A stretch of 64,000 bases of DNA. Source: Medicago truncatula (lineage: Eukaryota; Streptophyta; Magnoliopsida; Fabales; Fabaceae). Numbering within the stretch: the first letter of the stretch is position 1; every line of letters starts with the position of its first letter. The stretch covers positions 45,116,494 through 45,180,493 of the forward strand of contig NC_053045.1 of the NCBI RefSeq assembly GCF_003473485.1, read 5' to 3'. Position numbers and translations under genes: made by a program. Positions 35,785 to 62,580 of this stretch are shown here, one piece after another. A model generated the notes under the pieces. That model ran no database searches and was not told the DNA's origin. It saw only the letters and a program-made list of their open reading frames with translations.

Positions 35785-37034
35785 ATGTCAACAAGAGGGT
35801 CATGGATAACTTTGAAATTCAGAGGGGTTGTGGATGTAGTTCGTGCTAGTAGATTCCAATCAAGCTATGGTGGACTCAAGAGGAACAGTCCAATTGTGAC
35901 AACAACTAGGGTCGAAAGTAGGAATTGGAATAGGAATCCTGGTCTGCAATTCTTTAGCACCAAAAGCAACACAAGCACTAATGCAAATAGGTAGCTATAC
36001 TCAAAGCCTCAAACTTAATTTAATTTCCATCTTCAAATAAAGTTCATTATGAATGTTGATGCTAAATTTGTTTTCAACATGTACTTTATTAGAATAAAGA
36101 ATGATGAGATTCAACCTGAAGCCCCAGCTTCTAAATTTTTCGCCTTCTCTTCTTGGTATGAACTAACATCCCTTACTACTGTTATGATTAGAGGTTGCAT
36201 TAGATTAACCAGGCAAACCATTTGAATATTATGTCCATGTTTGGACAAACAACTTAATTAAGGGCTTATAGCTTAAACACTTTAACTGCAAAATTCGCAT
36301 AAACATTGAGAATAATAGTTTAGTTTACCAATGAATGGAAATTATATATTCATGACTATGCAAAACATCTATCTATATATCTATTCTAACAAAAGTATTC
36401 CTCTAATGAGTCGTAGCGAAATTTCACAATTGGTTTGTCGTCATTATCTTGTCACATCCGCATAAACATGATGAACATGCAGGGTTAAATGGATTGTGTG
36501 TTCGTTACTTTCTTTCATGCTACCTTTATGGAGTCAAAGTTGGGGGAAACTTGAAAGAATAGAAGGTATATTAACTAATAGCAATATGATATTCAAAGGG
36601 AGTGTATAAAGAGACTAACATGAGAATTACAGTATTTGATAACTCTGGTTAAAATGTGGATTCAGGAGAAGCAGAGATTGTGATTGAAGGGGTTGAAAAA
36701 GTGGCAGAAGTAGTAGAAAAAGTTGCAACCGTAGCAGAGAAGGTAAGTGAGGATTTAGCAGAGACGCTTCCTGAGGATGCTAAGCTAAAGAAAGTAGCGG
36801 TGGTTGTAGAAAGTGCATCAAAACAAGCTGTTCATGGTGCTCAAATAACAGAAGAATTCATACACAAGGTACTTACTTCTTACTCTATTATTATCACTAT
36901 TAACATTTACCACTAATTATGATTACTTGATTAATTTTTGGCACACACAGGTTGAAAAGGTGACTAATGATATGGAGGAATTAGAATCATTCGTTGAACC
37001 CTTAATTGACAAGATTGTGAAGAAACAAAGTTGA
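35785..37034 (+). CDS. Unrecognised protein, probably organelle-targeted
   Basis: Four exons give one open 197-residue frame: 35785-35990, 36093-36193, 36666-36868 and 36951-37034. The phases (2, 1, 0) and GT...AG borders fit. Residues 1-68 are rich in Arg, Ser and Thr and poor in acidic residues (MSTRGSWITLKFRGVVDVVR...), like a mitochondrial or plastid transit peptide. Exon 2 encodes FFAFSSWYELTSLTTVMIRG, and exons 3-4 encode a long, highly charged helix (VEKVAEVVEKVATVAEKV ...) suited to a coiled coil. Exon 2 is supported by a decayed copy at 56275-56380 in which the same reading frame is kept. It lies tail to tail with the first AGP gene, 391 bases from stop to stop. Family not recognised; no function claimed. 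Confidence 0.75.
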
Positions 37035-37425
37035 AACAACTCATTCCAAATCAAAATATCATTTGTACATTATTGTTTGGTTGTAATTAACATAGTACTT
37101 GTGTATGAAAGAAATTACCAAACAAAATTGAAATTATTTGTCCTTGTTCAGTTTTCAATTCTGTATGGGAATATTAACTTTTTTGGTTATCAAATTCTTT
37201 AAAAATATTCGAATTATTTTTAAGATAAACAAATGTAAGTCTAAACAATGATCGACAATAATATGAATAATAATTGAAACGAATAAATTGTATAATTAAA
37301 TTAATAGAATGAATGAATCGTAGTCACACAGATCGAAACAGGGCAACAACAAAAAGGAAAATAGTTCTCACGATCTGTGTAAATTCGTGATAAGAAAAAG
37401 AACATAATAAACTAAGAGTAACTCT

Positions 37426-37785
37426 CTACATCATCAAAGCGGCAGCGAAAATCACAACAGCAGCAGATCCGGCAACGGTGAATCTATTCAAAGCGGCGCC
37501 GTTTGATGGTGCTTCAGCAGGAGGAGTGGAGATCGATGATGGAGTAACAGCAGGAGCGGCGGCGGGTGAACCAGAGGAAGCAGGAGGAGGAGATGGTGGA
37601 GAGTTGATGGCGGATGGCGAAGGAGATGGAGAATTCTTCACAGGTGCGGGAGGAGATGCAGCCGGTGAGTGAGCGGAGGGAGAGATCGCAGGAGATTTGG
37701 ACGGAGATGACGATGGTGATTGAGCGAAGGTGGAACTCACCAACAATGCAGCCACAAGCATCAACACAACTTTGTAGGAAGCCAT
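37426..37785 (-). CDS. Classical arabinogalactan protein, copy 1
   Basis: 119 residues, intronless. The signal peptide (MASYKVVLMLVAALLVSS to TFA) is followed by a Pro/Ala/Ser/Thr-rich core of dispersed AP, SP and TP pairs, the sites of hydroxyproline arabinogalactans. The C-terminal hydrophobic tail VAGSAAVVIFAAALMM, after a small-residue stretch near SNGAA, is a GPI-anchor signal. It should be a heavily glycosylated protein on the outer face of the plasma membrane. It has one core block, like copies 2, 5 and 6. The promoter holds a TATA-like CTATAAGT near 37915 and two CGCG boxes. Confidence 0.92.
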   Translation of the reverse strand: MASYKVVLMLVAALLVSSTFAQSPSSSPSKSPAISPSAHSPAASPPAPVKNSPSPSPSAINSPPSPPPASSGSPAAAPAVTPSSISTPPAEAPSNGAALNRFTVAGSAAVVIFAAALMM

Positions 37786-37925
37786 AGTAAAAATTTGAAG
37801 AATGAAAATGAAAAATTAGGGTTTATGAAAAAAAAAAGCAGTAAAAAGATGAGGAATTAGGCGAGTTGTTGTTTGTAACTGTTGTGAAGAAAGAGATAGG
37901 GTTGGGAGGGTACTTATAGAATTGT

Positions 37926-37957
37926 TACCGCGTGATGACGCGTTTCTAGACTGAGTC
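37926..37957 (-). promoter_or_regulatory. Conserved CGCG block, AGP copy 1 promoter
   Basis: The plus strand reads ACCGCGTGATGACGCGT, with two CGCG boxes, next to the TATA element at 37913-37920. The same block occurs in the other AGP copies. CGCG boxes (VCGCGB) are the known binding sites of CAMTA factors; binding here is inference. Confidence 0.55.
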
Positions 37958-38169
37958 CTTCTGTGCCGTTGATCTTTTTCAATCAATATCTTTTTCTCAA
38001 ATAAGGTGTATTTAGGAAAATCATAATCATCGACCTATTTTGTAAAGAGAAAAAAATATTCACAAGAAAAAATATTGGTTGGTCTATTAAAGTTTTTCTT
38101 TTAGGGAAATAAATTATAAGTAAATGGTCTCTATTTTGTATTATATTTCTAAGTGTGTGAGGGATATTC

Positions 38170-39035
38170 GAGTTTTTCTATTTACACCCCATGTTTTTCT
38201 GGTTACACCTAAATTTTCTTAAAATTTTTTTATAATACCAAAATTGTCCTTTTATATAAATTTTCTTAAAACCCTAATTTTATTCATTGTCAGTGAGTTT
38301 TACCCTCTTTCACCCCCACAAAGCGATCGATCAAACAATTTGATGTTCAATATCAATCTCTATGAAAATTAAAGAGTGAATCAAAATTTTTTTCATCCAT
38401 ACTCAATTGGATATAAGTAAGTGAATTTCTTCTTCTATTTGCTAGTTTCAATTTTTTTTCCTTCAACTGCACTGATGCACTGTACGATTACGGTTTTAAT
38501 TTACATTGACAAGGTTAACTTAAATTCAGTTTAAGTAGGTTCATGTAAACATGAACCTACTTAAACTGAGTTTACATGAACCTACTTAAATTGAGTTAAC
38601 ATGAACCTACTTAAACTGAGTTTACATGAACATACTTAAACTGAGTTTACATGAACATACTTAAACTGAGTTTACATGAACCTACTTAAACTAAGTTTAC
38701 AAAATCGCAGAACTGTGAATCGCAGAACAAGGAAAACACAAAATCAGAACTGAGAACCCATAACAAGAAAAACACAATCGATTGAAGAACAACACTTGCT
38801 AACCTGATTTGCTTCGAATTTTCTTTGAAATCATGAATGGACGTGAGAAAGTATGGTTTTGAAAATCTTCGCAGAACACAATCGATCGATTGGAGAATTA
38901 TGGTTTTGGAAGAAGGGTTTTGGGGTGTAACCAAAAAAGAAGGAATAGGCTTTTTGAAAATCAAATTTTATGAAAGGATAATCTTGTCATTTTGGGGTGC
39001 AACCATAATTAACTAAGGTGCAAGTAGAAAAACTC
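38170..39035. mobile_element. Mutator-like non-autonomous element, 866 bp
   Basis: Terminal repeats GAGTTTTTCTATTTACACC and GGTGCAAGTAGAAAAACTC, bracketed by a 9-base direct repeat with one mismatch (GGGATATTC at 38161-38169, GTGATATTC at 39036-39044). A 9-bp target duplication is typical of Mutator-like elements. It carries a minisatellite at 38549-38698 and no convincing ORF. It lies upstream of AGP copy 1. Confidence 0.8.
38549..38698. repeat. 25-bp minisatellite, six units
   Basis: Six head-to-tail units of ACATGAACCTACTTAAACTG plus GAGTTT start at 38549, 38574, 38599, 38624, 38649 and 38674, with few differences. Just to the left (38527-38546) is one unit in inverted orientation, CAGTTTAAGTAGGTTCATGT, so the first unit can form a long hairpin. 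Confidence 0.9.
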
Positions 39036-39044
39036 GTGATATTC

Positions 39045-40670
39045 CGAGAATTCACTAGGGTCATAATAATAGATCTTAATACTAGATAATAGGTTTGTTT
39101 CTCTTTTACTTTCGTTTGGGTACATATTATTTATTTCTATTTAACTTTCATTTTGATACTTTAAGGGTGTAATTTGTCAATCTTTTATAATTACTCATAT
39201 TTAATCATTTTCAATAAAACTAATTAATATTGTATATTTGGAAAATTCAAATTTTTTTAACCAAAGTTTATTTTTTGTTATGTATAAATTTAAACTTCCA
39301 TGAAATATAATTTTGTCACCTATAATAATGGTTTTATGAAGAGTGACTAACAATTAGAAAAATATAGCATAATCAAGTTTATTGAAATGAGAGTGTGCAC
39401 AAAAAAAAAAATGTAATTTCTTTGGTGGGTTAAAATGAGATATAATAAGAAAAATAAAAAAAACTAAAAGAATCCACTAATTTGATTTGCATGTATTATT
39501 TTGAAATGACACTTTTTTTGAACAAGCAAGAAATGGCACTTGAAAAAACGGATAGAGTAATATTTTTTTTTAAGGAGGATAGAGTAATATTTTTGTGTCA
39601 ATATCACTAACTGAATCAAATTTTTGTTGACATTTTTTTGGTTAACATATAATTTTAAATTGGCATCAAATCACATTAAACTCTAAAAAAAAAATTAAAT
39701 TAAATAAAATAGGAAAAAATAAAAGAAGAATAAAAGGAAATTAAAAGTAGTAAGGTTGAGTTGGCGTGAAGAGGCAGCACGCTGGCCGCTGGGAGAGGGA
39801 ATGAATGTGCAAACCCAACCTGGTAAAGTTGTCCTTGAATATTTCCCAAAAAAATAACTTGTCTTTGAATAATAGAGGAGAGATGGATTTTATTTTATTT
39901 TTTTGACAAAGTGTTTTTAGAGGTTGTTGACGAAATTATGGATAGTTGTGATTCTGATTGTGTTTTTTTAAACATCAGCTATTTGGTATAAGAGATGCTA
40001 ATTTAGGGATCATTTCAAACAACAACTAGTGATGTTAAATTGAAGTTCCTGTAATTTTGTGGGGACTGATCCAGGTGGACCACTAATCCAACACAAGAAT
40101 TGTTAGCAACTAAAAATTCGAACATTAGACTTAAATAAAATTATAATTTAAGGTTTCAAGCCTTAACGATTATAAGAGGTGAAAATATATACTAAAATAA
40201 GTTAAGAAAATGCTAACAAGTATTCTACAGACATTTGATAAGAAATCCAAAAAAAATATTATCTTAGAAATAGTGCATTAATACTTCTAAACTCTGGAAA
40301 TTTTTATTTTTTAGTTGAATTCTTAAAATTTAAGTGTGACTTGTAAAAGAAGAAAAAGAGATACAAAACTCTCAAGAAAAAGGTCCCCAAATCATCAACA
40401 TGAAGCAAGTCAACAAGTCCACACAGAAAAGCAAGGACAAAGATGTTGAATTGGTCATAAGCACTAAGCTTAGGCATTAAATCATCATAATGATTGCCTT
40501 ATCGTAGCGTGTAGAAGACTCTGAAAAGCGAATTTTGGTGAAGCAAATTCTTAATGTCTTGAATAAGCACAACATACTTATGGAACTTGTTGCTGGGAGT
40601 TCCAAGTTGACATATTTGTCAACCGACGAACCATCAAGTAAGGAAGGATTATAAAAGCATAATATTTATT
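39045..40670. other. Spacer upstream of AGP copy 1
   Basis: Contains, at 39756-39830, a block (GAGTTGGCGTGAAGAGGCA) that recurs upstream of AGP copies 5 and 6 and so marks the far end of the duplicated unit. 40400-40640 looks mildly coding-like on the plus strand but has stops and no recognisable family. Confidence 0.5.
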
Positions 40671-40675
40671 GCACA

Positions 40676-40747
40676 TCCGTTGTAGTCTAGTTGGTCAGGA
40701 TACTCGGCTCTCACCCGAGAGACCCGGGTTCAAGTCCCGGCAACGGA
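40676..40747 (+). tRNA. tRNA-Glu (CUC)
   Basis: A complete 72-nt cloverleaf: acceptor TCCGTTG pairs with CAACGGA (one G-T), D arm TAGTCTAGTTGGTCAGGATA, anticodon stem-loop CGGCT-CTC-ACCCG, T arm CCGGGTTCAAGTCCCGG. A T run near 40751 can serve as the Pol III terminator. No intron and no encoded CCA, so nuclear and probably functional. Confidence 0.95.
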
Positions 40748-40848
40748 ATGTTTTTTGTTTCATTAATTTTTTTCCTGTTCTCTTTCGTATATATTTTTTT
40801 TTTTGAAGAGGTTCTCTTTCATATTTATTTATGACGCGTAGTGTAGCA

Positions 40849-41410: not shown

Positions 41411-41456
41411 GTGTAGCATCATTCTCGTCACTGTCTTGGTCTTTGGATAGACAACA

Positions 41457-42210
41457 ATGTCATCTGTGTCGAAAACTATACCAACCTCTTCACCTTATCA
41501 CACTCATAAAACCACTTCAAATTACACAAAAAAAAAATCTTATAACCGCTTCATCTTCTTCAAACAACCTCGTAGAACATGTCTTCTACATTCCACTGTC
41601 TGTGTCTCTCCATCTTTCACCAACACCACTCACAGCGTAACCCAAAACCAAAATGCAAAAATTAACAAATTCTGTGAAATGGGTGATCTTAGAAATGCTA
41701 TTGAATTACTCACAAAGTCAAAAGGCTATGAACTTGGGTTGAATAGTTACTGTTCCGTTTTGCAGCTTTGTGCTGAGAAGAAATCTTTGGAAGATGGAAA
41801 AAGGGTTCATTCTGTTATTATTTGCTAATGGAATTTCAATTGATGAGGCTTTAGGAGCTAAACTAGTGTTTATGTATGTGAATTGCGGTGATTTGGTTCA
41901 AGGGAAAAAAATATTTGATGAGATTATGAATGATAAGGTTTTTCTTTGGAATCTTTTGATGTCTGAATATGCAAAGATTGGTAATTTTAGAGAAAGTGTG
42001 AGTCTTTTTAAGAAAATGCAGAAGTTGGGAATTGTTGGGAATTGTTATACATTTACTTGTGTTTAGAAGTGTTTTGCTGCATTGGGAAAAGTAAAGGAGT
42101 GTAAAAGGGTTCATGGGTATGTTTTGAAATTAGGATTTGGGTCTAATACTGCTGTTGTTAACTCTTTGATTGCTGCTTATTTCAAATTTGGTGGAGTTGA
42201 GAGTGCACAT
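41457..42210 (+). pseudogene. DOT4-like PPR gene fragment
   Basis: A start codon at 41457 opens a frame with a transit-like N-terminus and then KINKFCEMGDLRNAIELL, SYCSVLQLCAEKKSLEDGKRVH, which matches the N-terminal PPR repeats of the DYW-class protein DOT4 (At4g18750 type, an organelle RNA-editing factor). Near 41810-41825 the frame shifts by one base and continues as GAKLVFMYVNCGDLVQGKKIF and FLWNLLMSEYAKIGNF. A TAG at 42064-42066 interrupts CV-stop-KCFAAL, and similarity goes on through KRVHGYVLKLGFGSN to 42210. There it stops abruptly where the sequence of the AGP unit begins. About three quarters of the expected protein is absent. Clearly a broken, truncated host gene. Confidence 0.8.
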
Positions 42211-42340
42211 AGAATAATAATTGAATGAATGAATTGTCGTCACACGGACCGAAACAGAGCAACAACAAAAATGAGGTAAAGAGTTAACGATCCATGTAAA
42301 TTCCTGATTAAGAAAACAAAAAAAACTCTTCGTAATTTCT

Positions 42341-42706
42341 CTACATCATCAAAGCTGCAGCAAAAACAACAGCAGCAGCAGATACGGCAAAGGTGAATCT
42401 GTTCAATGCGGCGATGGAGTTATCAGAAGGTGAAGGTGCTTCAGAAGGAGGAGTAGAGATGGATGATGGAGTAACAGCAGGAGCGAGAGAGTTAGAGGAA
42501 GCAGGTGGAGAGTTGACGGCGGATGCTAAAGGAGATGGAGACGTCTTCACAGGTACGGGAGGAGATGCCACCGGTGAGTCAGCGGAGGGAGAGATCGCAG
42601 GTGTGGCAACGGGTGATATGGTTGGAGATGATGAAGGAGATTGAGCAATGGTGGAACTAACAAATAGTGTAGCCACAAGCATCAACACAACTTTATAGGA
42701 AGCCAT
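42341..42706 (-). CDS. Classical arabinogalactan protein, copy 2
   Basis: 121 residues, intronless. The signal peptide MASYKVVLMLVATLFVSS ends at TIA. The core of SP, AP and TP pairs has one block with the fairly acidic spacer PSEAPSPSDNS, which copy 6 shares. The GPI-type tail is VSAAAVVFAAALMM. The homologous unit begins only 130 bases downstream of the stop (about 42211), directly against the PPR pseudogene, so this is the most truncated copy of the duplicated unit on its 3' side. Confidence 0.92.
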   Translation of the reverse strand: MASYKVVLMLVATLFVSSTIAQSPSSSPTISPVATPAISPSADSPVASPPVPVKTSPSPLASAVNSPPASSNSLAPAVTPSSISTPPSEAPSPSDNSIAALNRFTFAVSAAAVVFAAALMM

Positions 42707-43790: not shown

Positions 43791-43834
43791 CATCTGTTAT
43801 TAAGCAAAATGATTAAAGCAAGGTGGCAACTAGG

Positions 43835-43984: not shown

Positions 43985-44775
43985 AGAAAAAACCTTAAAG
44001 CAATGATAAGAAGGGCCTCATGAGTTCGTACAATAGTACCCAGCAGGTGATATTGTATGCTATATCTTGTATCTTCAGCGATGCATATCTTCAATTTCAT
44101 GATGTAGCTTCTTAGATCTCCATTACAATTCCTCACATTGTTCCATCAAACATCTAAAACTAACATTACTAGTTCAAAATGATTAAATAACATTAAAAAT
44201 TAGTTAAAACCATAAATTTTAAATAGTCCGATTGAATGCTTTAGACCATAGATTCACTCAATTCCCCATTCATTATGTTCATTATGGGGACAAAGGCAAC
44301 ATGATAACCTACAAAATTGCCGGTTATCAGTGTTATTATTTGTTTGAATTCACAACGATTTTCATACTAAACATTCATAGTTTCTTTATAGGCCACCTTC
44401 CTTACTAGTAAGCCGAGCTTGATCACATCATTTAAAACGGGAAAAGAAATTTGAGTGTTAAAGTAATACTAGTAGGCATGGAAGAGAATATACATCACTA
44501 AAGAAATCTATAACATGACTTTGCAGATGAATCTCATCATAGATTTACTTCTTGTTATGATTATTGAATTCGTATCGCCAAGATCAATCGATATGCTACG
44601 AGCTTGTAAACCTCCTCATAACGAGTAATATTGTTATACTTTTTTCAAAGATGGTCTCTAAGTAGGTAGAGTCTCTCATTTGAAGAAGAAAGAAACGTAA
44701 TATCATATACACATGGAATATTTAAAAAGTAGCTATTTTCTTAATTTTTCCATAATGAAATTTACTTTATTTGAT

Positions 44776-45470
44776 AACTTGGATTAAAATGTTCATTCAG
44801 GAGAGGCAGAGATTGTGATTGCAAGCAGCATTGGTGAAAGTGCATCAAAACATGTTGTTCATGGTGCATAACTAACAGTAGAATTCACACACAAGGGGTA
44901 CTGCAATTTTATCATTACCATTAACATTTGCCACTAATTTTGGTTCTTTGACACTTCACCAATTCTTCAAGTGATATGTTATTAGTTTTTGACATTGTTG
45001 TTAAAATCCCTACTTAAATCCTAAAATTTAGTTACGACTTTTTTCACCTTCAACGACTCAAATCCATAGTAGAACCCAAAATAGGCATAATTCATCGATT
45101 TTGATTGCGATTTTACGATTTCTTATAAATTAAGTCATTTATGACTCTATACCATTTATATCATATATTTAGTATTATTATATTTTGATTGTGATTTTAC
45201 GATTTCTTTATATCGATTCTACAAAAGTAGTTGAGTAAAATCCTTCGATTTTGATTGCGATTTTACGATTGTCGATTTAGCTCTTCTCTTTCGTCCTGAA
45301 GCAAAACTCTAATTTTGACAACCTTAATTTTTGGTTTCTTCTGGTCATTGAAACACACACAAGTTGAAAAAGTCACTAACAACACTCAGTATTTAGAATC
45401 ATTCGAACTTTAACCAGTAATTGACAAGATTGTGAATAAAGAAATATCAAATAACTGATTCCAAAATAAA
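44776..45470 (+). pseudogene. Decayed copy of exons 3-4 of the 35785 gene
   Basis: CAGGAGAGGCAGAGATTGTG near 44799 copies the start of exon 3; then about 100 bases are missing, and AAAGTGCATCAAAACATGTT continues the exon, followed by a stop (GCA-TAA). Exon 4 is copied at 45363-45450 (GTTGAAAAAGTCACTAACAA; ATTGACAAGATTGTGAATAA). The intron between them has grown by inserted AT-rich repeats at 45000-45300. Exons 1-2 are not found on this side. It lies tail to tail with AGP copy 3, as the intact gene does with copy 1. Confidence 0.8.
45096..45272. repeat. Dispersed direct repeats in the pseudogene intron
   Basis: Three near-copies of GATTTTGATTGCGATTTTAC at about 45097, 45184 and 45246, separated by unrelated AT-rich sequence. 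Confidence 0.6.
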
Positions 45471-45689
45471 ATTACCTTTGTTGTGTGTCATCGTTTGTTT
45501 GTATTACTATTGAAATATGATGCACATTTCTAGATATTTGTAGAATACATTAGCAATTTATATAATGATGATCATGTCTAGATTTTTTTATAGCTTAGTA
45601 GTTCGTAGAAAAAACCTATTCTACATTTTTCAAAATAGTTTTGTAGAAGTTCACGAAAGTTCTAGAATGTAGTATCTAGAATATGCCTA

Positions 45690-45990: not shown

Positions 45991-46530
45991 TAATTGCTAA
46001 ACTTATGTACATTTCGTATACTATATTTTTCTAACAATTAAGCATTAGTGTTTTCTAACAATTATGGTGCTTGTGCTGTTTTTTTTTTTAAATCAGGTAT
46101 CCTCCGCGCGCAACTGCGGAGACTAAGCTAGTAGAGACCTGTTCCATCTTATCTAAGCGCTCTTGGGTATGCGTGTGCTATTATGTACGAAAGAAATTAA
46201 CAAAAAAACAAAAAACAAAAAATTATGTTCCTTGCTTAGTTTTCAATTCTGGTTCCCTTCAAATACATACACTAATTTAAATATTTTTTTGCACAAGTAC
46301 ACTAATTCAAATATTAATTTATCCCTAATAAAAGAAAACCGAGGCAGATTTTTTTACGGCCACCGTGTGAGAAAGGGAATCAAACAATAGTATAACCAAG
46401 ATAAGACCAGAAAATAATTGCAAGCAAATAAAAAGAGTTGAAAAGCTTAAAAAGAGTTGACTATCCATGTAAATACATGATTAAAAAAGAACAAAATACA
46501 TAAAATAAAATAAAAACTCAATGTAACTCT

Positions 46531-47139
46531 CTACATCAATATCAAAGCCGCAATAAAAACGACAGCAGCAGCATATCCGGCAACGTTGAATCCATTCATA
46601 GTGGCACCGTTTGTGGGCGTTGATGGTGCTTTAGTTGGAGGAGTAGAGATCGACGATGGTGCTTTAGTTGGAGGAGTAGAGATTGACGATGGAGTAATAG
46701 CAGGAGCGGCAGCAGGGGAGGCGTGAGGAGGAGGAGATGGTGGAGAGTTGATGGCGGACGGTGAAGGAGAAGGACTGCTCGTTACAGGTACGGGAGAAGA
46801 TGCCACCGGTGAGTTAGCGCTGGTGGAGGGAGCAATCGCAGGTGATGGTGCTTGAGATGGAGGAGTTGAGATCGACAATGGAGTAACTGCAGGAGCGGCA
46901 ACAGGAGAAGCAGGAGAACCAAAGGAAGCAGGAGGAGGAGATGTTGGATAGTTAACTGCGAACGGTGAAGGAGATGGAGCGTTCATCAAAGGAACGGGAG
47001 AAGATACCGCCGGTGAGATAGCCAAGGGAGATCCCGCAGGAGATGGAGTGGCAACAGGAGATGATGATAGAGATCGTGCAAAGGTAGAACTAACCAATAG
47101 TGAGGCCACAAGCATCAACACAACCATGTAGGAAGCCAT
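46531..47139 (-). CDS. Classical arabinogalactan protein, copy 3 (long form)
   Basis: 202 residues, intronless. Signal peptide MASYMVVLMLVASLLVSS. The glycosylation core is doubled: two successive blocks each run SPVPV/SPVPL ... PSPSPxAxNxPxSPPP ... AVTP/AITPSSISTPP. Near the C-terminal end SSISTPPTKAP occurs twice in a row (direct repeats at about 46628-46690). The GPI-type tail is VAGYAAAVVFIAALILM. The longer core should hold about twice as many arabinogalactan chains as the single-block copies. Confidence 0.92.
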   Translation of the reverse strand: MASYMVVLMLVASLLVSSTFARSLSSSPVATPSPAGSPLAISPAVSSPVPLMNAPSPSPFAVNYPTSPPPASFGSPASPVAAPAVTPLSISTPPSQAPSPAIAPSTSANSPVASSPVPVTSSPSPSPSAINSPPSPPPHASPAAAPAITPSSISTPPTKAPSSISTPPTKAPSTPTNGATMNGFNVAGYAAAVVFIAALILM

Positions 47140-48440: not shown

Positions 48441-48441
48441 C

Positions 48442-49060
48442 TAGGGATGAAAATAGGTCAGGTCGGTCTACGGCCTAACCTACGACAAGTCAAACCATAC
48501 TTTTTTCTTAAATAGAGATTGCATAGACTTTTTTAGAAGCCTGATTAAATTAAAAGGTCAGACCACATGTCATTCAAAAAGCCCTTAAGCTTGTTAGACC
48601 GATCTATTTAAGTAAACATGAATAGTATTATTTATTATTATATTATATTTTTCACTTTGAATTAAAATATAAATTTGTTATCTTTTTTCAATAATTTAAG
48701 CTTATTATATACATTAGTCTTTTGCATATATATAAAGGTATTATTATAAACTAGAATTGAAGTAAGATACAATTTATTGTGAAATGCCTTAAAACCTCAT
48801 GTTGATTATCAAAGAAGAGTTTAACCTAATTGATCTATTTGTTCACTAGTTTATTTAAACTTGCATCACATTGCTTATTTAAAAATGTTCATAAGATATA
48901 GGCTTTTAAACAGGTTATCAGGTCGTATCAGGTTTTCATAAGGTCAGGCTCAGGCCTAAAATGTAAGCCTTTTACTAGCCGCAAGCCAAGCTTATAGGCT
49001 TTAAAAAAAATTGGTAGGTTAGACCTAGGCCTTGCAAAGTCTAGCTCGGTCTAGCCTTTC
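48442..49060. mobile_element. Non-autonomous element with GGTC/GACC-rich arms
   Basis: The left end TAGGGATGAAAATAGGTCAG and subterminal GGTCGGTCTACGGCCTAACC are mirrored at the right by GGTTAGACCTAGGCC and CTCGGTCTAGCCT. The layout matches a repeat common in legumes. No ORF. Superfamily not decided. Confidence 0.5.
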
Positions 49061-49092
49061 TAGGTACAACATATGGAAATAGGAAAATAAGC

Positions 49093-49613
49093 CATGCTCA
49101 ATCAATTACAATAATTAATTTTCATAAAAATAAAAATAAAATAAAATAAAAAAAAGACTAAGGATCTTTGAGGGAGAGTGTACTAGCTCTAATGAAAGAA
49201 ATGACCAAACAAAACTAAAATTAATTTTCCTTTTGTTTGTTCGATTTTCAATTCTGGTTTCCTTCAATTGATCTGATTTGTCCATCATAATCAGAAAAAC
49301 ATTGACAGAGTATGAACGAAGGTGATGATGGCAATAATAATCGAATATAAAAATAATTGCAAGCAAATAGCATAAATAGATTTTTTTTTTTTTTTTTTGA
49401 AACAAGCATAAATAGATTCATGTAAATTCATAAAAAATAACTGCAAGCAAATAGCATAAATAGATTCATGTAAATTCATAAAATAAAAATAAAAAATAAA
49501 ATAAAATAAAAAACACAACAATAAGAGTCAGGAATATGTAAATTTGTGATTACAAAAAAGTCAAAAAAAGAAACATCTCAGCGTCTACCCTAACAAAAAA
49601 AACTCAGCCAAGT
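49093..49613. repeat. 3' flank of the duplicated AGP unit (copy 4)
   Basis: GCTCAATCAATTACAATAAT, GAGGGAGAGTGTACTAGCTC and GAAAGAAATGACCAAACAAA match the corresponding flank of copy 5 (57160-57260), and the latter part matches the 3' flank of the intact partner gene (37104 onward). A local 60-base duplication (AAATAGCATAAATAGATTCA) lies at 49365-49480. Confidence 0.7.
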
Positions 49614-50171
49614 CTATATCATCAAAACAGCAGCGAAAACCACAACAGCAGCAGATCCGGCAACAGTGAATCTGTTGAAAGCGGCGCCGTTTGTGGATGT
49701 TGATGGTGATTTAGATGGAGGGGTAGAGATAGACGTTGGAGTAATAGCAGGAGGAGGAGATGGTGGAGAGTTGTTGGTGGACGGTGATGGAGAAGGAATG
49801 CTCTTCGCAGGCACGGGAGCAGATGCCGCCGTTGAGTTAGCGGAGGGAGAAATCGCTGGTGATGGTGCTTGAGATGGAGGAGTAGAGATCGACGATGGAG
49901 TCACAGCAGGAGCGGCAACGGGAGAAGCAGCGGCAGCTGGAGAACCAGGAGCGGCAGCGGGAGGAGCAGATGCTGGTGAGTTGATGGCGAACGGTGAAGG
50001 AGATGAAGCACCAGGAAGAGGAGCAGATGCCACTGGTGAGTTAGCGGAGGGAGAAATTATTGGTGATGGAAACGGAGAAAACATGGGCGATGATGATGGT
50101 GGTGATCGAGCAACTGTGGAATCCAGCAGCAGTGCAACCAAAAGCATCAGCACAACGGTGTAGGAAGCCAT
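49614..50171 (-). CDS. Classical arabinogalactan protein, copy 4 (long form)
   Basis: 185 residues, intronless. Signal peptide MASYTVVLMLLVALLLDSTVA. Two core blocks, each with ISPSANS followed by ASAPxP, PSPSPxxxNSPxSxPP and a TP(S/T)SISTPP motif, as in copy 3. The GPI-type tail is VAGSAAVVVFAAVLMI. It shares the doubled core with its neighbour copy 3, so those two probably descend from one doubled ancestor. Its promoter lacks CGCG boxes, and an L1 fragment lies only about 230 bases upstream of the start. Confidence 0.92.
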   Translation of the reverse strand: MASYTVVLMLLVALLLDSTVARSPPSSSPMFSPFPSPIISPSANSPVASAPLPGASSPSPFAINSPASAPPAAAPGSPAAAASPVAAPAVTPSSISTPPSQAPSPAISPSANSTAASAPVPAKSIPSPSPSTNNSPPSPPPAITPTSISTPPSKSPSTSTNGAAFNRFTVAGSAAVVVFAAVLMI

Positions 50172-50399: not shown

Positions 50400-51390
50400 T
50401 TCTTTTTGATCAAAATAAAGTTAACTATCATTAATCAACTAATGTGCAATACAAGAAGGATAAGAGTTAAAAATGCGGTGACTAGCCCAAGAACAGACCG
50501 CCCTAGCTAAAGTATGAGCAACCATGTTCGATTGTCTCCTAACAAACTTCACCTCGAAGTTGGAATGTAAAGATAACTGATAAATAATACTAGAAACAAT
50601 AGCATAGAATTCTGAATCACCATGGCCCAGAGACGAAAGAGCTTGCACTAAAGTAGCAGAGTCAGACTCGAAGACAACCCGGTCCCATCTGTTCACATAA
50701 GCAAAGTGAATAGCATCGAGTAAGGCTACTGCCTCCCCCTCCAAAACTGTCATATTTGCCCGTTTCCATTTCGTTTGTGCCCGAATAAATTTCCCTCGGG
50801 AGTCTCTAACACAACATGCAGAGGATGTAAGACGATTACGGTCATGGAACGCGGCATCCACATTGCACTTCAACCATGTCTCGCTCGGTTTCTCCCAAAC
50901 TAAGTTGTTACGTACCTTGCACCCTATTCCGGTCATGTTGCACAACCGGTAGTGAGGGATGTTTATGAACCTCATGCCATTGCTGCCATGCATCCAGAGC
51001 TGTCCTTCCAATGCTTGTTGAAGGTATAATGAGCGTCCTTCCAAATGACATCATTACATGCAGCCCAAATTTTCCAAAGAAGTAAAGCCACACGACCAGC
51101 AATGTCTCGGCTTTCTGAACAACATATGTCAAAAACAAAATTTGTCAAACTACTCTCAGTTCCAACTCGCGTTTGCAACACAGTCGAAAGTCCTGTCCAA
51201 TACCAACTTTCACTCGCCACCGTACAGCCCACAAAAGCATGCCAATCATCCTCAACATCCGTATCACACCAGGGGCAGTTCAATGTGTAACAACTCCATC
51301 ATAGCTAGTTTGTCCCGACGACTCCCATATCTAACGACGATGAGAAATTGAATCTCATCACCGTCTTCAACGGGTTTGGGTATCCATACA
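50400..51390 (-). mobile_element. L1-type LINE 3' end with RNase H domain
   Basis: Minus-strand reading frames encode the zf-RVT zinc finger (CPWCDTDVEDDWHAFVGC; then LLLWKIWAACNDVIW) and a plant-type RNase H (VDAAFHDRNRLTSSACCVRD; VVFESDSATLVQALSS; VKFVRRQSNMVAHTLAR) ending near 50439. The two parts are in different frames with a shift near 50975-51040, and the reverse transcriptase is absent, so it is a 5'-truncated, dead copy, though the RNase H frame is still open for about 200 codons. TTTTTGAATAA on both sides (about 50342 and 51403) may be the target duplication. Confidence 0.8.
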
Positions 51391-52970: not shown

Positions 52971-53362
52971 TTAAATATGTATTTGAACCTTGCAATTAGG
53001 GGTCGTTTAAAAATTGGTCCCTGTAATCGCTAATCCTGGCAATTTACCCTTGCATTGTTTAATCATTTAAAATTTCGTCGCTCTCCCCACTTAATCACTG
53101 CCGAGCCACATGAAATTCTAATTTTACCCCTGGGTTTCCAATTCTTTCTTCATTATTTTGTCCTCTTCTTAAGGGCAAAATTGGAATTTCATGTGTGGCA
53201 GTGATTGCCACGTCATCAAATTAGTGACGTGGCAATGATTAAATTGGTCAAAGGACGAAATTTAAAATGATTAATGATTGCAAGACTAGTTTGCAAGGAT
53301 TAGCGATTACAGGGACCAATTTTTAAACGACCCCTAATTGCAAGGATCAAATACATATTTAA
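52971..53362. mobile_element. Long-TIR MITE, 392 bp
   Basis: TTAAATATGTATTTGAACCT with ATTAGGGGTCGTTTAAAAAT at the left is inverted at the right as ATTTTTAAACGACCCCTAAT and TCAAATACATATTTAA; arms of about 75 bases. A second inner pair (GCCACATGAAATT, AATTTCATGTGTGGC) is present. No ORF. The target duplication is unclear. Confidence 0.75.
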
Positions 53363-55820: not shown

Positions 55821-55841
55821 TATTAGAAAAATCAGAAATGG

Positions 55842-55973
55842 TTCCCCGTGAGCTTAACTCAGTTGGTAGGGATATTGCATATTTTATGCAGGAGCCGGGG
55901 TTCGAACATCGGACACTCCACTTCTCCACAATTAAATTGTGTGAACTCTAGCCACTAGACTACTTGACAAAAA
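55842..55973 (+). mobile_element. tRNA-derived SINE, well preserved
   Basis: Starts TTCCCCGTGAGCTTAACTCA (box A-like), has GCCGGGGTTCGAACATCGG (box B-like), then CTAGCCACTAGACTACTTGA and an A tail. The flanks AAAATCAGAAATGG (55828-55841) and AAAATTGGAAATGG (55974-55987) are a 14-base target duplication with two differences. Confidence 0.85.
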
Positions 55974-56164
55974 AAAATTGGAAATGGAGAGGGACCAATT
56001 TCATCGTTATATTGCGAAATTTCCATCTCTACATACTTTAGAAACAAATTTGGGGACGAAACTGAATATGTCTTAGAGACGTATTGTCTTACCACACATA
56101 CTTTACAGACATATTGCCTTACCAAAGGAACACTTAAATTTTGTAAACATCTAGGGTTGAAAAT

Positions 56165-56380
56165 ATGCAAACCAGTCGGCAATTCTTTAACAATGCAAAA
56201 AGGTAGCTACATTCAAGGCCTCAACCTTAAAAAGGTAACTTGATGCTAATTTTTTTTTCAACTTGTACTTCATTGAATTAAAGGATGATGAGGTTCAACA
56301 ACAGGAAGCTCCAACTTCTACAATTTTCACGTTTTCTTCTTGGTTTGAACTAACATCCCTCATTATTGCCATGATGAGAG
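56165..56380 (+). pseudogene. Decayed copy of exons 1-2 of the 35785 gene
   Basis: GGCAATTCTTTAACAATGCA with AGGTAGCTACATTCAAGGCC matches the end of exon 1 and its donor region. 56275-56380 copies exon 2 in frame: DDEVQQQEAPTSTIFTFSSW and FELTSLIIAMMRG, ending at the same donor (AGAG|GTTGCA). Homology continues a little into the intron and is lost near 56415; exons 3-4 are missing. The open frame of exon 2 helped define exon 2 of the intact gene. Confidence 0.8.
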
Positions 56381-57150
56381 GTTGCACCTACTAATTTAAA
56401 TTAACCAAGAAAACAATTTGACCATTCCTTGACAAGTGATATTTTGCAGTGGCTTACCCCCTTCAACATTGGAAGTTTCCAATGCTTCTTAAGGAAGTGA
56501 CATACTTCCACTAAGGCTTGAAATTGTTGACATGATTTCATGATTTCACGACATAACCGAAACCACTGGAGGTTGACATTGCAACGGTGCTCACAACTTT
56601 GGACACGCCAAAAGTAAGTTACTTGTCGTGTTAGAAGTACATGAATTGCTAAATTTTTCACAACAGCATGCACGCGTATGAAAATAATCATCACCACAAG
56701 AAAAAGGTTACACACGTAAGTTACAATAGCTCGTTCGACCGGGCCTTCCAAATTGTCTACTGTGATCTTTTTTGTTACAATATAAGCAAATTAACTTTTT
56801 ATATTCATATATTTAACGATATATGTTGTTCATATACCACATACATCATTAAATGAATGAACTTAAAAAGTCAATTTTATTTATATTTAGAAATGGAGGA
56901 AGTAATTATGAACTGCGTCAAACCGACCATAAATAAATGTTTAATCAATGTGATCATGGGTGTGTTTTATAAAGTGTTTTGAAAAAAAGAAGGTGTATTT
57001 TGTTGAGTTGACTTTTAAACATACGTATGTGACCTTATTGACAAAAAAATGTATGTTGTCATTAGTTTGCAAAACAACTCCCGCACTACTTAAAATTTAT
57101 GGGTATGTGTTTGATTGATTTTCCCAAGTCAATTACATGGTATTGGTACC
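56381..57150. other. Spacer replacing partner exons 3-4
   Basis: A minus-strand ORF of 116 codons (56401-56751) has no recognisable motif. 56745-56905 resembles the Stowaway family at 60411 (AATATAAGCAAATTAACTTT; AATGAATGAACTTAAAAAGT; AATGGAGGAAGTA) but its left end is eroded. Confidence 0.5.
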
Positions 57151-57671
57151 ATGAAATGCTCAATCAATTAAAATAATTAATTTTCATAAAAATAAAGTTA
57201 ACATCTTGTTGAGGGAGAGTGTATTGCTCTGTTTCATGAAAGAAATCACCAAACAACTAAAATTTCTCCTTGTTCGGCTTTCAATTTCTGATTCCCATTA
57301 AATACATAATTTGTCCATAATATCCCGAAGAAAATTGATGGAATTTATTTATTTTTCCTTTCCTACTACTAATTTTTGTTGTTGTTGTTGAAAGATACAC
57401 AATTCATTCAAATGAAAACGATGATCGACAATAAGATAAATAATAATTGCAAGGAAGTAGTAACGTTGAAAAGAAGAAGAAGAAAAAATGTGTCACTGAT
57501 TAATTAAAGTAATAAATAGATTACAGAAAATAATCGAATGAATAAATCGTCGTCGCACAGATCGAAACAGAGAAACAACAAAAAGGTACATAGTAGTTCT
57601 CACGATCCATGTAAATTCGTGATGTAAAAAAAACAAAATAAAATAAAATAAAATAAAACTCGAGTAACTCT

Positions 57672-58046
57672 CTATAGTATCAAAGCGGCGGCGAAAACCA
57701 CTACAGCAGCAGATCCGGCAACGGTAAATCTGTTCAAAGCGGCACCGTTTTCGGAAGGTCCTTCGGAAGGAGGAGTGGAAATGGATGATGGAGTAAGAGC
57801 AGGAGAGACAGCGGGAGAGTCGGATGAAGCAGGAGGAGGAGATGGTGGAGAGTTGATGGCTGAAGGTGAAGGAGATGGAGCGTTCTTCACAGGTATGGGA
57901 GCAGATGCCGCCGGTGAGTCAGCGGAGGGAGAGATCGCAGGTGTGGCAACAGGGGATATGGTGGGAGATGAAGATGGAGATTGAGCGAAGGTAGAACTAA
58001 CCAATAGTGTAGCCACAAGCATCAAAACAACTGTGTATGAAGCCAT
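57672..58046 (-). CDS. Classical arabinogalactan protein, copy 5
   Basis: 124 residues, intronless. Signal peptide MASYTVVLMLVATLLVSSTFA. Single core block (SPTISPVATPAISPSADSPA; APSPSPSAINSPPSPPPASS; LTPSSISTPPSEGPS) and the GPI-type tail VAGSAAVVVFAAALIL. The downstream side keeps the partner's 3' flank (57232-57330) and AGP 3'-UTR blocks (CGTCGCACAGATCGAAACAG at 57549), the upstream side the GAGTTGGCGTGAAGAGGCAA block at 59026, so this is the most complete copy of the unit after copy 1. Confidence 0.92.
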   Translation of the reverse strand: MASYTVVLMLVATLLVSSTFAQSPSSSPTISPVATPAISPSADSPAASAPIPVKNAPSPSPSAINSPPSPPPASSDSPAVSPALTPSSISTPPSEGPSENGAALNRFTVAGSAAVVVFAAALIL

Positions 58047-58169
58047 TGTAAAAATTTGATGAAGGAGAATAAAAAATTAGGGTTTATAAGAAGTTTTGAA
58101 GCAGTGTGTAGAAGAATTGAGAGAGTCTATTGTTGTGGAAGAAGAGAACAGAATTGGAACAGTATTTAT

Positions 58170-58205
58170 AGAAGTGTATACGCGTTTCTAGGCTGAGTCG
58201 TTATG
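58170..58205 (-). promoter_or_regulatory. CGCG block of AGP copy 5
   Basis: Plus strand TATACGCGTTTCTAGGCTGA: one CGCG box kept, the first lost. TATTTATAG just to its left (about 58162-58170) is the TATA element in reverse. Confidence 0.55.
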
Positions 58206-59490
58206 AGCCGTTGATCTTTTCCAATCATTGTTATCTTTTTATTTTAGATTAATATCAGGTGTATTTAGAAAAAGAATCATTCCTCTTTCTTTCAAAAATA
58301 AAAATAAAATAAAAAGAATTATTCCTAATCCTTGTTGGTACAGAAAAATATTCTGTCAATTAAAAAGAAAGTAAAATTGAACTTAAAAACAAAAATAAAA
58401 TATATCTGTCTATTGTTTTCATATCTACTTTAATATTTTTACATAAATTCGGGGTAGCTAATTTTGACAAAAAAAAGAGAGTAATATTTTTGTTTTTGAG
58501 GTATAATATATATTTTTTAACATGTTTAAGAAAATATTGTATTTCTTTTAACAAAATTTAAGGTGTCCTCGTTTGATTAGCTCAGTTGGTTGGACAATGC
58601 ATCAAATATGTAAAAAATATTAAGGTGAGTTTTTTTTCGAGATACATCCAAATATGATTTTCAAGGTTCAAAAAATGTCCATAGACATACTTATAGATTG
58701 TTTATTAATTACATATTTATATAAATTAGTCCTTCAAAATTGTCATAGCAGAAAATTAAATGTGAAACGTTGAGAGGAATACACTCCAATATCACAAAAT
58801 CAACACCATCAATCTAGAAAAAAATTGTATTAATCAACTAAAATTTAATCTTAAGAAGTTTAAAAAATAAAATGTAAACTCTAAAAAATCAATTGAAAAA
58901 AAATAGGAAAATCAAATGAAATAAAAAAAAAAATAGGAAAATTTTCTCAAAAACGGAAAGAAAATAAAATGTGAGAATAAAAGGAAACTAAAACTCAAAC
59001 TTAAAAGGAAAAACAGAATACCGTTGAGTTGGCGTGAAGAGGCAACAAGCTGGTAGGGAATGAATGAGCAAGTCCAAGCTGGTAACTTTCTTAGAATAAT
59101 AAGAACCGTTGGACAGATGGTTGCTATTATTTGAAGAAAAGTCCTAACAGACTACAAATCTAGGATTAAATATGTCTTAATTTTCTATTAATATATTAAC
59201 GTTTTATTTTAGTTCAATAAAATTTTCAATCAACATTTTTTTGTCATTATTTCTAAGTTAATTTATATGTAGTATTTGTATTTTTTAACAAAATAGTGCA
59301 GAATATTGAAAACTCTCTCAATTTTTTTTTTAAAAAAACATAAATTAAATATAAATTTTTAACCGTTGAAAATATAAAATTCATATTTGATTCATATTTT
59401 GTTAAAATATTCTAATTAGTTTTAGGCGCGATTTTTACCATAATAAGTTTTTATTTGTAAAATTTTGTTTAAAAATATGAATTTCACATA
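58206..59490. other. Upstream flank of AGP copy 5
   Basis: Contains a partial SINE head (GATTAGCTCAGTTGGTTGGA, 58577), the conserved unit-end block (59022-59130, GAGTTGGCGTGAAGAGGCAA; AATAAGAACCGTTGGACAGA) and, from 59165, half of a long-TIR element related to the one at 59848. No gene. Confidence 0.55.
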
Positions 59491-59699
59491 AGGGTGAGAA
59501 AAAACCAAAAACCGAACTGAACTGTTGAATTGAACCGAACAAAACAAAAAATTATTGACAATTCTGAAACTGAACTGAAACAATTCGGTTCGATTTGAAA
59601 CAGTTCGGTTCAAATCTATAACAATTCAATAACTAAAATTCGATTTCGTTTGATTTTTTATAAAGGTACCAATCATAATTGTTCAATTCAGTTCGAAAC

Positions 59700-59757
59700 A
59701 GGGACAATGCATAATATATGTAAGGTCCGGGGTTCGAACCCTAACCTCCACACAAAA
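59700..59757 (+). mobile_element. SINE fragment nested in the composite repeat
   Basis: GGGACAATGCATAATATATG and GTCCGGGGTTCGAACCCTAA match the middle of the SINE at 55842. Its 5' head is missing. Confidence 0.65.
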
Positions 59758-59847
59758 AGTTCAATTCGAAACAGTTCGGTTCAGTTTGAAACATTTTGAT
59801 TCAGTTCGAAATGCAAACAATTCGGTTCAGTTCAGTTATTTTAAATT

Positions 59848-60328
59848 AGGTTAAATATGTTTTTGGTCCCTATAAATATATCAACTTTTCGTTTTAGTCC
59901 CTCTAAAATTTTCCTTCAACTTTTAGTCCCTATGAAATTTTGAATCACTACTTTTGATCCCTATTTTAAAGTAAATTTTAGTATTTTTTTAATGAAATTG
60001 TACATAAATGTGTAGAATATTGTAAAAAAATTAGAATTTTTTAAGTAAACATAAATTAAATATGAATTTTTAACCATAAAAAATATATAAATTCATATTA
60101 AATTCATCTTTTGTAAAAAAAATCTATTTTTTTTTTGTAAGAGATTCTTATAATATTATGAATTTTTCTGGAAAATTTGATTCAAAAATTCTACATATGA
60201 GTTTACTTTAAAAGAGGGACCAAAAGTGAAAATGGAAAATTTTTAGGGACTAAAAGTTGAAGGAAAATTTTAGAGGGACTAAAATAAAAAGTTAGTATAT
60301 TTATAGGGACCAAAAACATATTTAACCC
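59848..60328. mobile_element. Mutator-like long-TIR MITE, 481 bp
   Basis: Arms AGGTTAAATATGTTTTTGGT and ACCAAAAACATATTTAACCC extend inward over about 90 bases (TTTTAGTCCCTC against GAGGGACTAAAA). The perfect 9-base direct repeat TTTTAAATT flanks it (59839-59847 and 60329-60337). No ORF. A partial right arm of the same family lies at 60595-60690. Confidence 0.85.
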
Positions 60329-60410
60329 TTTTAAATTTAGTAAACAAATCAGTTCGGTTCCGTTCAATTTTCATCCTGAACCAAACTATGTCCACCCCTA
60401 ATTTTACATA

Positions 60411-60556
60411 CTCCCTTCTGTCACTATTATAAGCAAAAGTTGGTTTTTTAGATTCATTCAATAAATGATGTATGTGGTCTATATATAAACTACATACATA
60501 ATTTATTGAATGAATTTAAAAAGTGAACTTTTGCTTATAATAGTGACCAGAAGGAG
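60411..60556. mobile_element. Stowaway MITE, 146 bp
   Basis: CTCCCTTCTGTCACTATTAT and ATAATAGTGACCAGAAGGAG are the two ends, with TA duplicated (60409-60410 and 60557-60558). The inner part is also self-complementary (AAGCAAAAGTT; AACTTTTGCTT). Confidence 0.9.
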
Positions 60557-60699
60557 TATGAGTTTAGTTAAAAATAGAAAGCAAAAGTGATGATGAAAAA
60601 CTTTTGAGGAACTAAAAATAGAAGAAAATTTTAGAGGGACTAAAAATAAATTGGTATATTTATAGGAAAAAAATTACACATTTAACCATTAAACATAAT

Positions 60700-61420
60700 A
60701 TTATGGATTTTTCAGACAAAATATATATATATATAACAAGATAAAGAGATACAAAGATCGGATGACATTCGACTTAACCTAAGTACAATTCAAACGGAAA
60801 TACATCGTGATAAATCAAATCAACAAGTTTAAACTAGCGAATGGATCGGCCACCAACATAGAAACCAAATTCACGTATCAACGACTCCTGAATAAATCAT
60901 CAAACATAAAAGCTCTTTCGAAAAATGGTGCCGCAAATCTGACACAGAACTGCAGATCTCGGCAAATTTAGAGTAAAAGATAATCAAAGAGATCATAACC
61001 AAACACAAGCAGTTGCACATGAAATCAGGGGTATGAACCCAGATCGCGGCTATTTGGAGAGTGATGAAAAGACATAAATGAGTCACATTGCTAGTTGCTA
61101 CAAGAAAACATCTCACTCGAAGTTGGAGAAATGTTTGGGTTTCAATTTGAAAACTGATTCAATTGATGAAAACCAATATGCCTGAAACAACATTTTCTAG
61201 CTTCTACAAGTGAAAAAAGCCAAGTTTGACAACCATTGAAAGTTTGAAACAGTTCAAAAACGCTTCCCATAAAGTTGAGACACTAAAACACCTACTCTGA
61301 AGGGCCAAGGAAAGAGACACTAAAACTAGGAAGAATCAAAGAAGGACCCGTTAACTTCAGACGAGTCTCCCTTGACTTCATTTTACTTTACTTTAGGCTG
61401 GGGTCATACTCACGCCTGTG
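60700..61420. other. Spacer before AGP copy 6
   Basis: No recognised gene. The minus-strand ORF at 60871-61116 has no motif. Homology to the duplicated unit resumes near 61430. Confidence 0.45.
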
Positions 61421-61796
61421 GTGTTTTGTATCAAAGAAATTATCAAACAAAACCAAAATTCACTTGTTTCTCTTTAAATACTAATTTTACTTTACCATAG
61501 CAGTCGGAAGGAAATTGCTGCATTTTTTTTTTCTGCCATTAATTGTGAATATTAACTTGTGTTTGGCTGTTGAAGAGACATCAATCGAGTAATAAATTGC
61601 AAGGAAATAACAGAAATTGAAAAGAATAAAAAGTATCACTCTCATTAAAATAATAATCAATAGATTACAGAAAATAATAAAATGAATGAATGGTAGTCAC
61701 ACAGATCGAAACAGAGCAACAAAAGAGTTCACGATCCATGTGAATTCGTGATTAATAACAAAATAAATCAAAGAAAAAAAAACTCAGATGAACTCT

Positions 61797-62165
61797 CTAC
61801 ATCATCAAAGCAGCGGCGAAAACCATAACAGCAGCAGATCCAGCAACGGTGAATCTGTTAAAAGCGGCGGCGGAGTTGTCTGAAGGTGAAGGTGCTTCAG
61901 AAGGAGTAGTAGAGATGGATGATGGAGTAACAGCAGGAGAAACAGCGGGAGAGTCAGAGGAAGCAGGAGGGGAAGGAGAAGGAGCGTTCTTCACAGGTAC
62001 GGGAGGAGATGCCACCGGTGAGACAGCGGAAGGAGATGGTGCCTGAGAGGATTTGGGTGGAGTGGCAACGGGTGATATGGTTGGAGATGATGAAGGAGAT
62101 TGAGCAATAGTGGAACTAACCAACAGTGTAGCCACAAGCATCAATACAACTGTGTAAGAAGCCAT
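61797..62165 (-). CDS. Classical arabinogalactan protein, copy 6
   Basis: 122 residues, intronless. Signal peptide MASYTVVLMLVATLLVSSTIA. The core has an unusual charged interruption (ATPPKSSQAPSPSAVSPV), then PSPSPPASSDSPAVSPAVTP, SSISTTPSEAPSPSDNSAA and the GPI-type tail VAGSAAVMVFAAALMM. The PSEAPSPSDN tail end is shared with copy 2. Downstream lies the AGP 3'-UTR block (ATGGTAGTCACACAGATCGA at 61690) and a short piece of the partner's 3' flank (61430). Confidence 0.92.
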   Translation of the reverse strand: MASYTVVLMLVATLLVSSTIAQSPSSSPTISPVATPPKSSQAPSPSAVSPVASPPVPVKNAPSPSPPASSDSPAVSPAVTPSSISTTPSEAPSPSDNSAAAFNRFTVAGSAAVMVFAAALMM

Positions 62166-62297
62166 TGTAGAAAGTTGAAGAAGGAGAATGAAATTTTAGG
62201 GTTTATAAGAAGTTTTGAAGTAGTAAGTAGAAGAAGAATTAGAGCCTAGAGGAGTTGTTTGTTTGTGATTTGATGTTGGAAGGGTATTTATAGAAGC

Positions 62298-62332
62298 ATA
62301 ACCGTGTGAAGACGCGTTCCTAGGATTAGTCG
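62298..62332 (-). promoter_or_regulatory. CGCG block of AGP copy 6
   Basis: Plus strand AACCGTGTGAAGACGCGTTC: the inner box has changed to CGTG, the outer ACGCGT is kept; TATTTATAG is at 62285-62293. Confidence 0.55.
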
Positions 62333-62404
62333 TTAATCACCCGTTGTTCATCTTTTTCACTTTTTTATTTTTATTTATTTAGAATAAAAGGAAGAAAAAA
62401 AAAG

Positions 62405-62580
62405 AATACGGTTGAGTTGGCGTGAAGAGATTTACAGCACGCGGGGGAGAAAGAGAAGGAATGATCAAGTCCAAGTCCAAGCTGGGACAGCTGTTTTGAA
62501 TAATAAGAGCCGTTGGATAGATGGTTGTCATCGTTTATTTTAGGAAAAGTCGTAACGGTCGGAAATAAGAATACTTTCCA
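62405..62580. repeat. Unit-end block upstream of AGP copy 6
   Basis: GGTTGAGTTGGCGTGAAGAG, AAGTCCAAGCTGGGACAGCT and AATAAGAGCCGTTGGATAGA match 59022-59130 (copy 5) and in part 39756-39830 (copy 1). In copy 6 it is only about 240 bases from the start codon, against about 1 kb in copy 5 and 2 kb in copy 1, where elements have inserted. Confidence 0.75.

Follow-up and report, generated by a model that had tools for sequence, protein, structure and literature searches.

How does a tandem array come to hold six copies of one gene and a single intact copy of its neighbour? The question is raised by a stretch of Medicago truncatula DNA (contig NC_053045.1, positions 45,116,494 to 45,180,493), all 64,000 bases of which (G+C content 33%, no N) form the window within which all comparisons were made. 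Between 37.4 and 62.2 kb, and within 25 kb, it carries six homologous open reading frames (ORFs) of 119-202 amino acids that resemble genes for arabinogalactan proteins (AGPs), all on the minus strand; tail to tail with the first lies a gene on the plus strand, here called the partner. A sequence-only reading of this DNA had reported the six AGP genes and proposed that the duplicated unit was the convergent pair. Both statements are borne out, the second by partner sequence that accompanies copies 1, 3 and 5 with unchanged order and orientation. As to the asymmetry, we consider it probable that the unit was multiplied in tandem, that the AGP copies were kept under constraint and that the partner copies were bystanders, probably 5'-truncated from birth.

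The duplicated gene pair

The AGP ORFs are copy 1 (37,426-37,785; 119 amino acids), copy 2 (42,341-42,706; 121), copy 3 (46,531-47,139; 202), copy 4 (49,614-50,171; 185), copy 5 (57,672-58,046; 124) and copy 6 (61,797-62,165; 122), all minus strand; self-matches mark copies 3 and 4 as internally duplicated. The partner beside copy 1 occupies 35,785-37,034 on the plus strand, with 391 bp between the two stop codons. It codes for 212 amino acids in five exons, and all introns are GT-AG. Exon 1 lies at 35,785-35,990, exon 2 at 36,093-36,155, exon 3 at 36,483-36,565, exon 4 at 36,666-36,868 and exon 5, including the stop, at 36,951-37,034. The sequence-only reading had described an intact gene of four exons, tail to tail with copy 1: integrity and arrangement stand, the exon number does not. 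The four-exon model was rejected since its joined exons break the frame; exon 3, absent from that model and bordered by AG and GT, closes it, and the possibility that the partner is a pseudogene was dropped once the frame was restored.

The N-terminus of the partner, encoded by exon 1, is basic and rich in serine and threonine (the first 68 residues hold 11 K+R, 2 D+E and 18 S+T); it resembles an organelle presequence, and on this composition the partner may be organelle-targeted. Exon 3 contributes most of the most hydrophobic stretch of 19 residues (mean 1.58). The full protein has no Pfam match at E<=0.01, separate pieces match only below the Pfam cut-offs, an NCBIfam search gave no match and a comparison with PDB nothing convincing (best E 0.42). 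The single-sequence AlphaFold model is poor (mean pLDDT 49.2) and mostly helix.

When the region 34,800-37,425 was used as query against the corresponding slots beside the five other AGP copies, with 100 dinucleotide shuffles per slot, pieces at 44.8, 45.4 and 56.2 kb aligned to 36.0-37.1 kb on the same strand with 75-87% identity. Slot 3 holds a remnant of exon 4 (44,755-44,951, plus strand) with a stop codon and an internal deletion of about 110 bp, the score of its two pieces (44,755-44,821 and 44,831-44,951) being reached by 0/100 shuffles each, and a remnant of exon 5 and the 3' flank, also with a stop (45,354-45,503, plus strand; 0/100). The remnant in slot 5 (56,123-56,426, plus strand) covers the gapped end of exon 1 and some of intron 1, followed by exon 2 and the first part of intron 2; its pieces 56,192-56,230 and 56,240-56,426 were again reached by 0/100 shuffles each, and the end of exon 1 by 0/200. 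Translation shows stops in the slot 3 pieces and in the exon 1 piece of slot 5; exon 2 in the latter slot has an open frame with a three-base insertion. The proposal that decayed partner exons lie near copies 3 and 5, in the same place and orientation, is thus confirmed, as all shuffles were exceeded; of the four pieces that had been named as partner-like, the first three hold, but the one at 57.2 kb is 3' flank and contains no exon. These remnants indicate that a partner once stood beside copies 3 and 5 at least. In units 1, 3 and 5 both genes are homologous and agree in order and orientation. Because the partner is found beside copies 3 and 5, and copy 3 stands apart from copies 1 and 5 in each of the five trees described below, the pair belongs to the ancestral unit.

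The 3' flank of the partner has left more widespread traces. A block of the GAAAGAAAT type at 37,099-37,163 is common to copies 3-6, always on the plus strand: alignments and shuffles place it at 46,181-46,251 (copy 3) and 49,192-49,256 (copy 4), alignments at 57,236-57,286 (copy 5, not in the shuffle-test list), and the sixth copy has it at 61,424-61,467. In slots 3 and 4 the block is joined to the AGP 3' flank with 59-60% identity (0/100 shuffles each). The block of copy 6 is marginal when compared with copy 1 alone (2/100 shuffles reach the score) and is supported by copy 5, of which 57,225-57,399 aligns with 61,419-61,580 over 181 columns (E 1.2e-7). The flank had been called alignable near copies 4, 5 and 6, which is correct with this reservation for copy 6; copy 3 was missing from that list.

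By the shuffle tests, no partner trace was accepted in slots 2, 4 and 6, and none of exons 3-5 in slot 5. Short matches of 20-40 columns remain unclaimed: those to exon 3 in slots 2, 5 and 6 are reached by 8, 2 and 1 of 200 shuffles, respectively, and one to exon 1 in slot 4 by 10/200; the exon 3 matches in slots 5 and 6 could prove real with more data. That the partner was lost in all but one copy is therefore right as a description, but decay is demonstrated for copies 3 and 5 only: copies 4 and 6 hold a scrap of 3' flank and copy 2 nothing.

Slot 2 retains only AGP-proximal flank, homology starting 130 bp past the AGP stop, with no partner trace in the shuffle tests. The slot is occupied by a truncated and frameshifted PPR pseudogene (41,457-42,213, plus strand; from translation and Pfam), which may resemble DOT4. 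It runs in one frame up to a stop and then in another. Another stop divides the sequence further: the piece before it matches PPR models (PF13041, 2.7e-10) and the piece after it only PF01535 (0.0027, below the cut-off), up to position 19/31 of the profile; the 123-residue N-terminal ORF has no Pfam match. The last PPR match ends near 42,207 and the homology of the AGP2 3' flank starts at 42,211, thus the two limits nearly coincide.

On the upstream side, units 1, 5 and 6 share a distal block (39,745-39,841, 59,009-59,148 and 62,397-62,556, strand not assigned), which was reached by 0/200 two-base-block shuffles in each of the three pairs. Its distance upstream of the ATG is 0.2-0.4 kb in copy 6, 1.0-1.1 kb in copy 5 and 2.0 kb in copy 1: in copy 6 it follows almost directly after the promoter homology, from which it is separated by about 0.7 kb in copy 5 and 1.7 kb in copy 1. 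From the position of this block near copy 6 and the end of exon 1 in slot 5 it follows that the unit extended at least from partner exon 1 as far as a point some 0.4 kb upstream of the AGP gene.

Constraint and relationships of the AGP copies

Hydroxyproline-linked arabinogalactan is one of the criteria for a classical AGP. All six ORFs start with MASY and have a hydrophobic core at the N-terminus (12-residue Kyte-Doolittle maximum 2.8-3.2) and a hydrophobic C-terminus (maximum 2.5-3.1), signal peptide and glycosylphosphatidylinositol (GPI) signal being judged by hydropathy only. Copy 1, the only one of the six scanned, has no Pfam match. Proline, alanine, serine and threonine (PAST) make up 62.8-68.6% of the whole ORFs, exceeding the 30% criterion used in PMC5816549. 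The definition in PMC5266747 asks for an N-terminal signal peptide, a PAST-rich mature region without other domain and a C-terminal GPI-anchor signal, and sets AG-peptides (<90 amino acids) apart from classical AGPs; all six ORFs are longer than AG-peptides and, as predicted from composition and hydropathy, are classical-AGP-like under this definition.

The AGP half of the pair had been described as kept open in every copy, and a comparison of dN and dS among the six frames agrees with this: all six are open and dN is below dS in all 15 pairs. dN/dS ranges from 0.20 to 0.56 and dS from 0.26 to 0.62 (NG86, which is rough on repetitive proteins), and 0-8 per 1000 codon bootstraps gave dN>=dS across the pairs. 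Indels point in the same direction. In the six of 15 pairs that could be compared with their flanks (not independent of each other), 12/32 coding indels have a length not divisible by three; in the flanks the count is 66/90. The numbers of frame-breaking coding indels in pairs 1-5, 1-2, 2-6, 2-5, 5-6 and 1-6 are 0, 0, 4, 4, 2 and 2, with 12.0, 9.7, 12.9, 13.2, 15.2 and 9.0 expected from the flanks. As all six frames are open, the residual frame-breaking indels may reflect alignment placement or compensated shifts. The AGP copies are under purifying constraint. Gene conversion as the source of their similarity was considered and is unsupported (dS 0.26-0.42 and flank identity 0.80-0.885 in six pairs, alignable flanks only).

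Five AGP trees were constructed, from coding, concatenated, 5' flank, 3' flank and joined flank sequences. Copies 3 and 4 are joined in the coding (98) and concatenated (99) trees and, weakly, in the 5' flank (58) and joined flank (72) trees, and copy 3 is apart from copies 1 and 5 in 5/5. The coding tree joins copies 2 and 6 (93), and the joined flanks split copies 1 and 5 from the rest (91); coding and flank trees thus do not agree on one order of duplication. Copies 3 and 4 have in common an internal PAST-rich duplication (self-matches 46,655-46,818/46,844-47,022 and 49,746-49,865/49,956-50,069), which therefore probably predates their split. Left of the flank block, copies 4 and 5 have a tail in common (49,036-49,190 with 57,092-57,230; 0/200 mononucleotide shuffles). 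Copies 1, 3 and 6 gave no such match (19-198 of 200 shuffles reached the best score), and neither did the insert of copy 3 (28 and 121 of 200).

Eight of the 18 VCGCGB motifs of the window fall within 250 bp upstream of five of the six AGP ORFs, just before the TATA region. We take the motif to be a CAMTA-type CGCG box; its count is not independent, because the AGP copies are related.

Why one partner and six AGP genes

The explanation we favour would run as follows. A segment with one end inside partner exon 1 or beyond it, and the other some 0.4 kb or more upstream of the AGP gene, was copied as direct tandem repeats, presumably by unequal crossing-over, and every new unit would have brought along a full AGP gene and its promoter. 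The AGP copies would have stayed open under purifying constraint, and the partner copies would have been bystanders, probably 5'-truncated at birth, which then decayed through separate lesions, presumably with no selection on partner number. Six AGP genes would lie side by side because a segment that also carried most of the partner was copied repeatedly.

Truncation at birth is probable because the promoter and start of the partner survive in the outermost left unit only: in the five other slots, promoter and first ~35 codons are above the shuffles in none, the best match to the promoter or the 5' half of exon 1 being reached by 24-198 of 200 shuffles (24 in slot 4). If the left border of the unit lay inside exon 1, later partners were born dead and only the outermost could survive; the intact partner is the leftmost of the six, as this predicts. 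Truncation at birth or ordinary neutral loss therefore suffices for the asymmetry, with no preference for a single copy.

Several observations weigh against this reconstruction. The left end of the unit is informed by copy 5 only, the exon 1 of which is full of gaps; the argument for truncation at birth draws on this one informative slot, and the 5' part absent from it may have been deleted later. Copies 2, 3 and 4 gave no match to the distal block in their upstream regions. To the right of this block, units 1 and 5 have no clear match with each other (9/200 shuffles) and do not match the partner promoter (196 and 32 of 200, respectively), and no junction between adjacent units is readable. 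Apart from the grouping of copies 3 and 4 the AGP tree is unstable, the short 3' flank tree lacks even this grouping, and the tail common to copies 4 and 5 conflicts with copies 3 and 4 as sisters, a grouping based on their internal duplication and on the coding tree. Between copies 3 and 4, 6/16 coding indels have a length not divisible by three, with only 20 bp of flank and hence no usable control.

The sequence-only reading had supposed that whole functional pairs were duplicated, the AGPs being favoured for dosage and the extra partners removed for the benefit of a single copy. We think this unlikely. The AGP copies are constrained and none of the five extra slots holds an intact partner, as it would expect, and the presequence-like look of exon 1 would suit it too, given that organelle-related genes reportedly return to single copy. 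However, with no slot retaining partner promoter or first ~35 codons above shuffles, intact duplicates are only putative, the survivor stands at the left end of the array, and redundant duplicates are commonly lost, for which selection is unnecessary. If synteny favoured full-length partners, the array would become a clean case for gene-specific dosage effects.

It seems distinctly improbable that only the first duplications included the partner and that later ones started from partner-less units, so that copies 2, 4 and 6 never had one. Copy 2, with homology only from 130 bp past the AGP stop and no partner trace, and copy 6, with only a scrap, would fit, but the flank next to the 3' end of the partner is still present in copies 4 and 6, and the position of copy 3 apart from copies 1 and 5 in 5/5 trees gave most internal nodes a partner. 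Such a course of events can be compatible with the bystander explanation that we prefer.

That removal of the partner was selected, its convergent transcription interfering with the AGP and its loss freeing the AGP copies, is improbable in the extreme: the stops of the tail-to-tail pair are 391 bp apart and 0/5 extra copies keep the partner, but the intact pair persists and transcript overlap is only putative. We likewise hold it highly improbable that the partner was purged repeatedly for depressing AGP expression as a convergent neighbour at a distance of 391 bp. If true, copies 2-6 would be release mutants that gained AGP output when the gene opposite them broke, and the array would repeat the removal of a neighbour as a natural series of replicates.

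Elements between the units and known systems

A RING gene occupies 32.1-33.1 kb, left of the array. A tRNA gene (40,676-40,748) lies between AGP copies 1 and 2, and an ORF on the minus strand that encodes an RNase H-like RVT_3 domain (50,439-50,993), probably a piece of a retroelement, adjoins copy 4. Between units there are three self-palindromes, at 52,971-53,362, 59,849-60,327 and 60,407-60,560 (each compared with its reverse complement, identities of 72, 75 and 88%), presumably like miniature inverted-repeat transposable elements. A short repeat at 55,848-55,967, some 155 bp from the left edge of the slot 5 remnant, has 73% identity to 13,774-13,891; we assume that it resembles a tRNA-derived short interspersed element.

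In literature searches, most of them aimed at AGPs, none of the papers listed was recognised as a description of this array. Tandem AGP clusters are known, but they are a minor mode: 15 or 17 (both figures are given) of 293 AGP genes in Brassica rapa lie in tandem clusters (PMC8658186), 7/152 classical AGPs of pear are typed tandem (PMC5816549), and Gossypium hirsutum has five tandem against 25 segmental duplications (PMC12071561). The array resembles the clusters of Brassica rapa and pear in its adjacent AGP duplicates and differs from them in having six copies in 25 kb and a co-duplicated neighbour that can still be traced.

De Smet and colleagues (cited in PMC7086175 and PMC10400039) are said to have found in 2013 that some genes, organelle-related ones included, return to single copy after duplication. 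The partner is like these in that redundant copies were lost and one was kept, and in that it may be organelle-targeted; unlike them, its extra copies may never have been complete, and it was counted within the window only. The locus also carries a caution: a retained half and a lost half can reflect the position of a duplication border and not selection on copy number.

Segmental tandem duplication that includes bystander genes is a known pattern, which the array resembles: both have direct multi-gene repeats in which one gene is kept and the other pseudogenised. Nothing essential is different here, and the borders of the unit are only partly defined. As tandem duplications go, the array is fairly ordinary, and its anatomical record is good; it is a small and readable case in which the two-gene unit can be recovered from its remnants.

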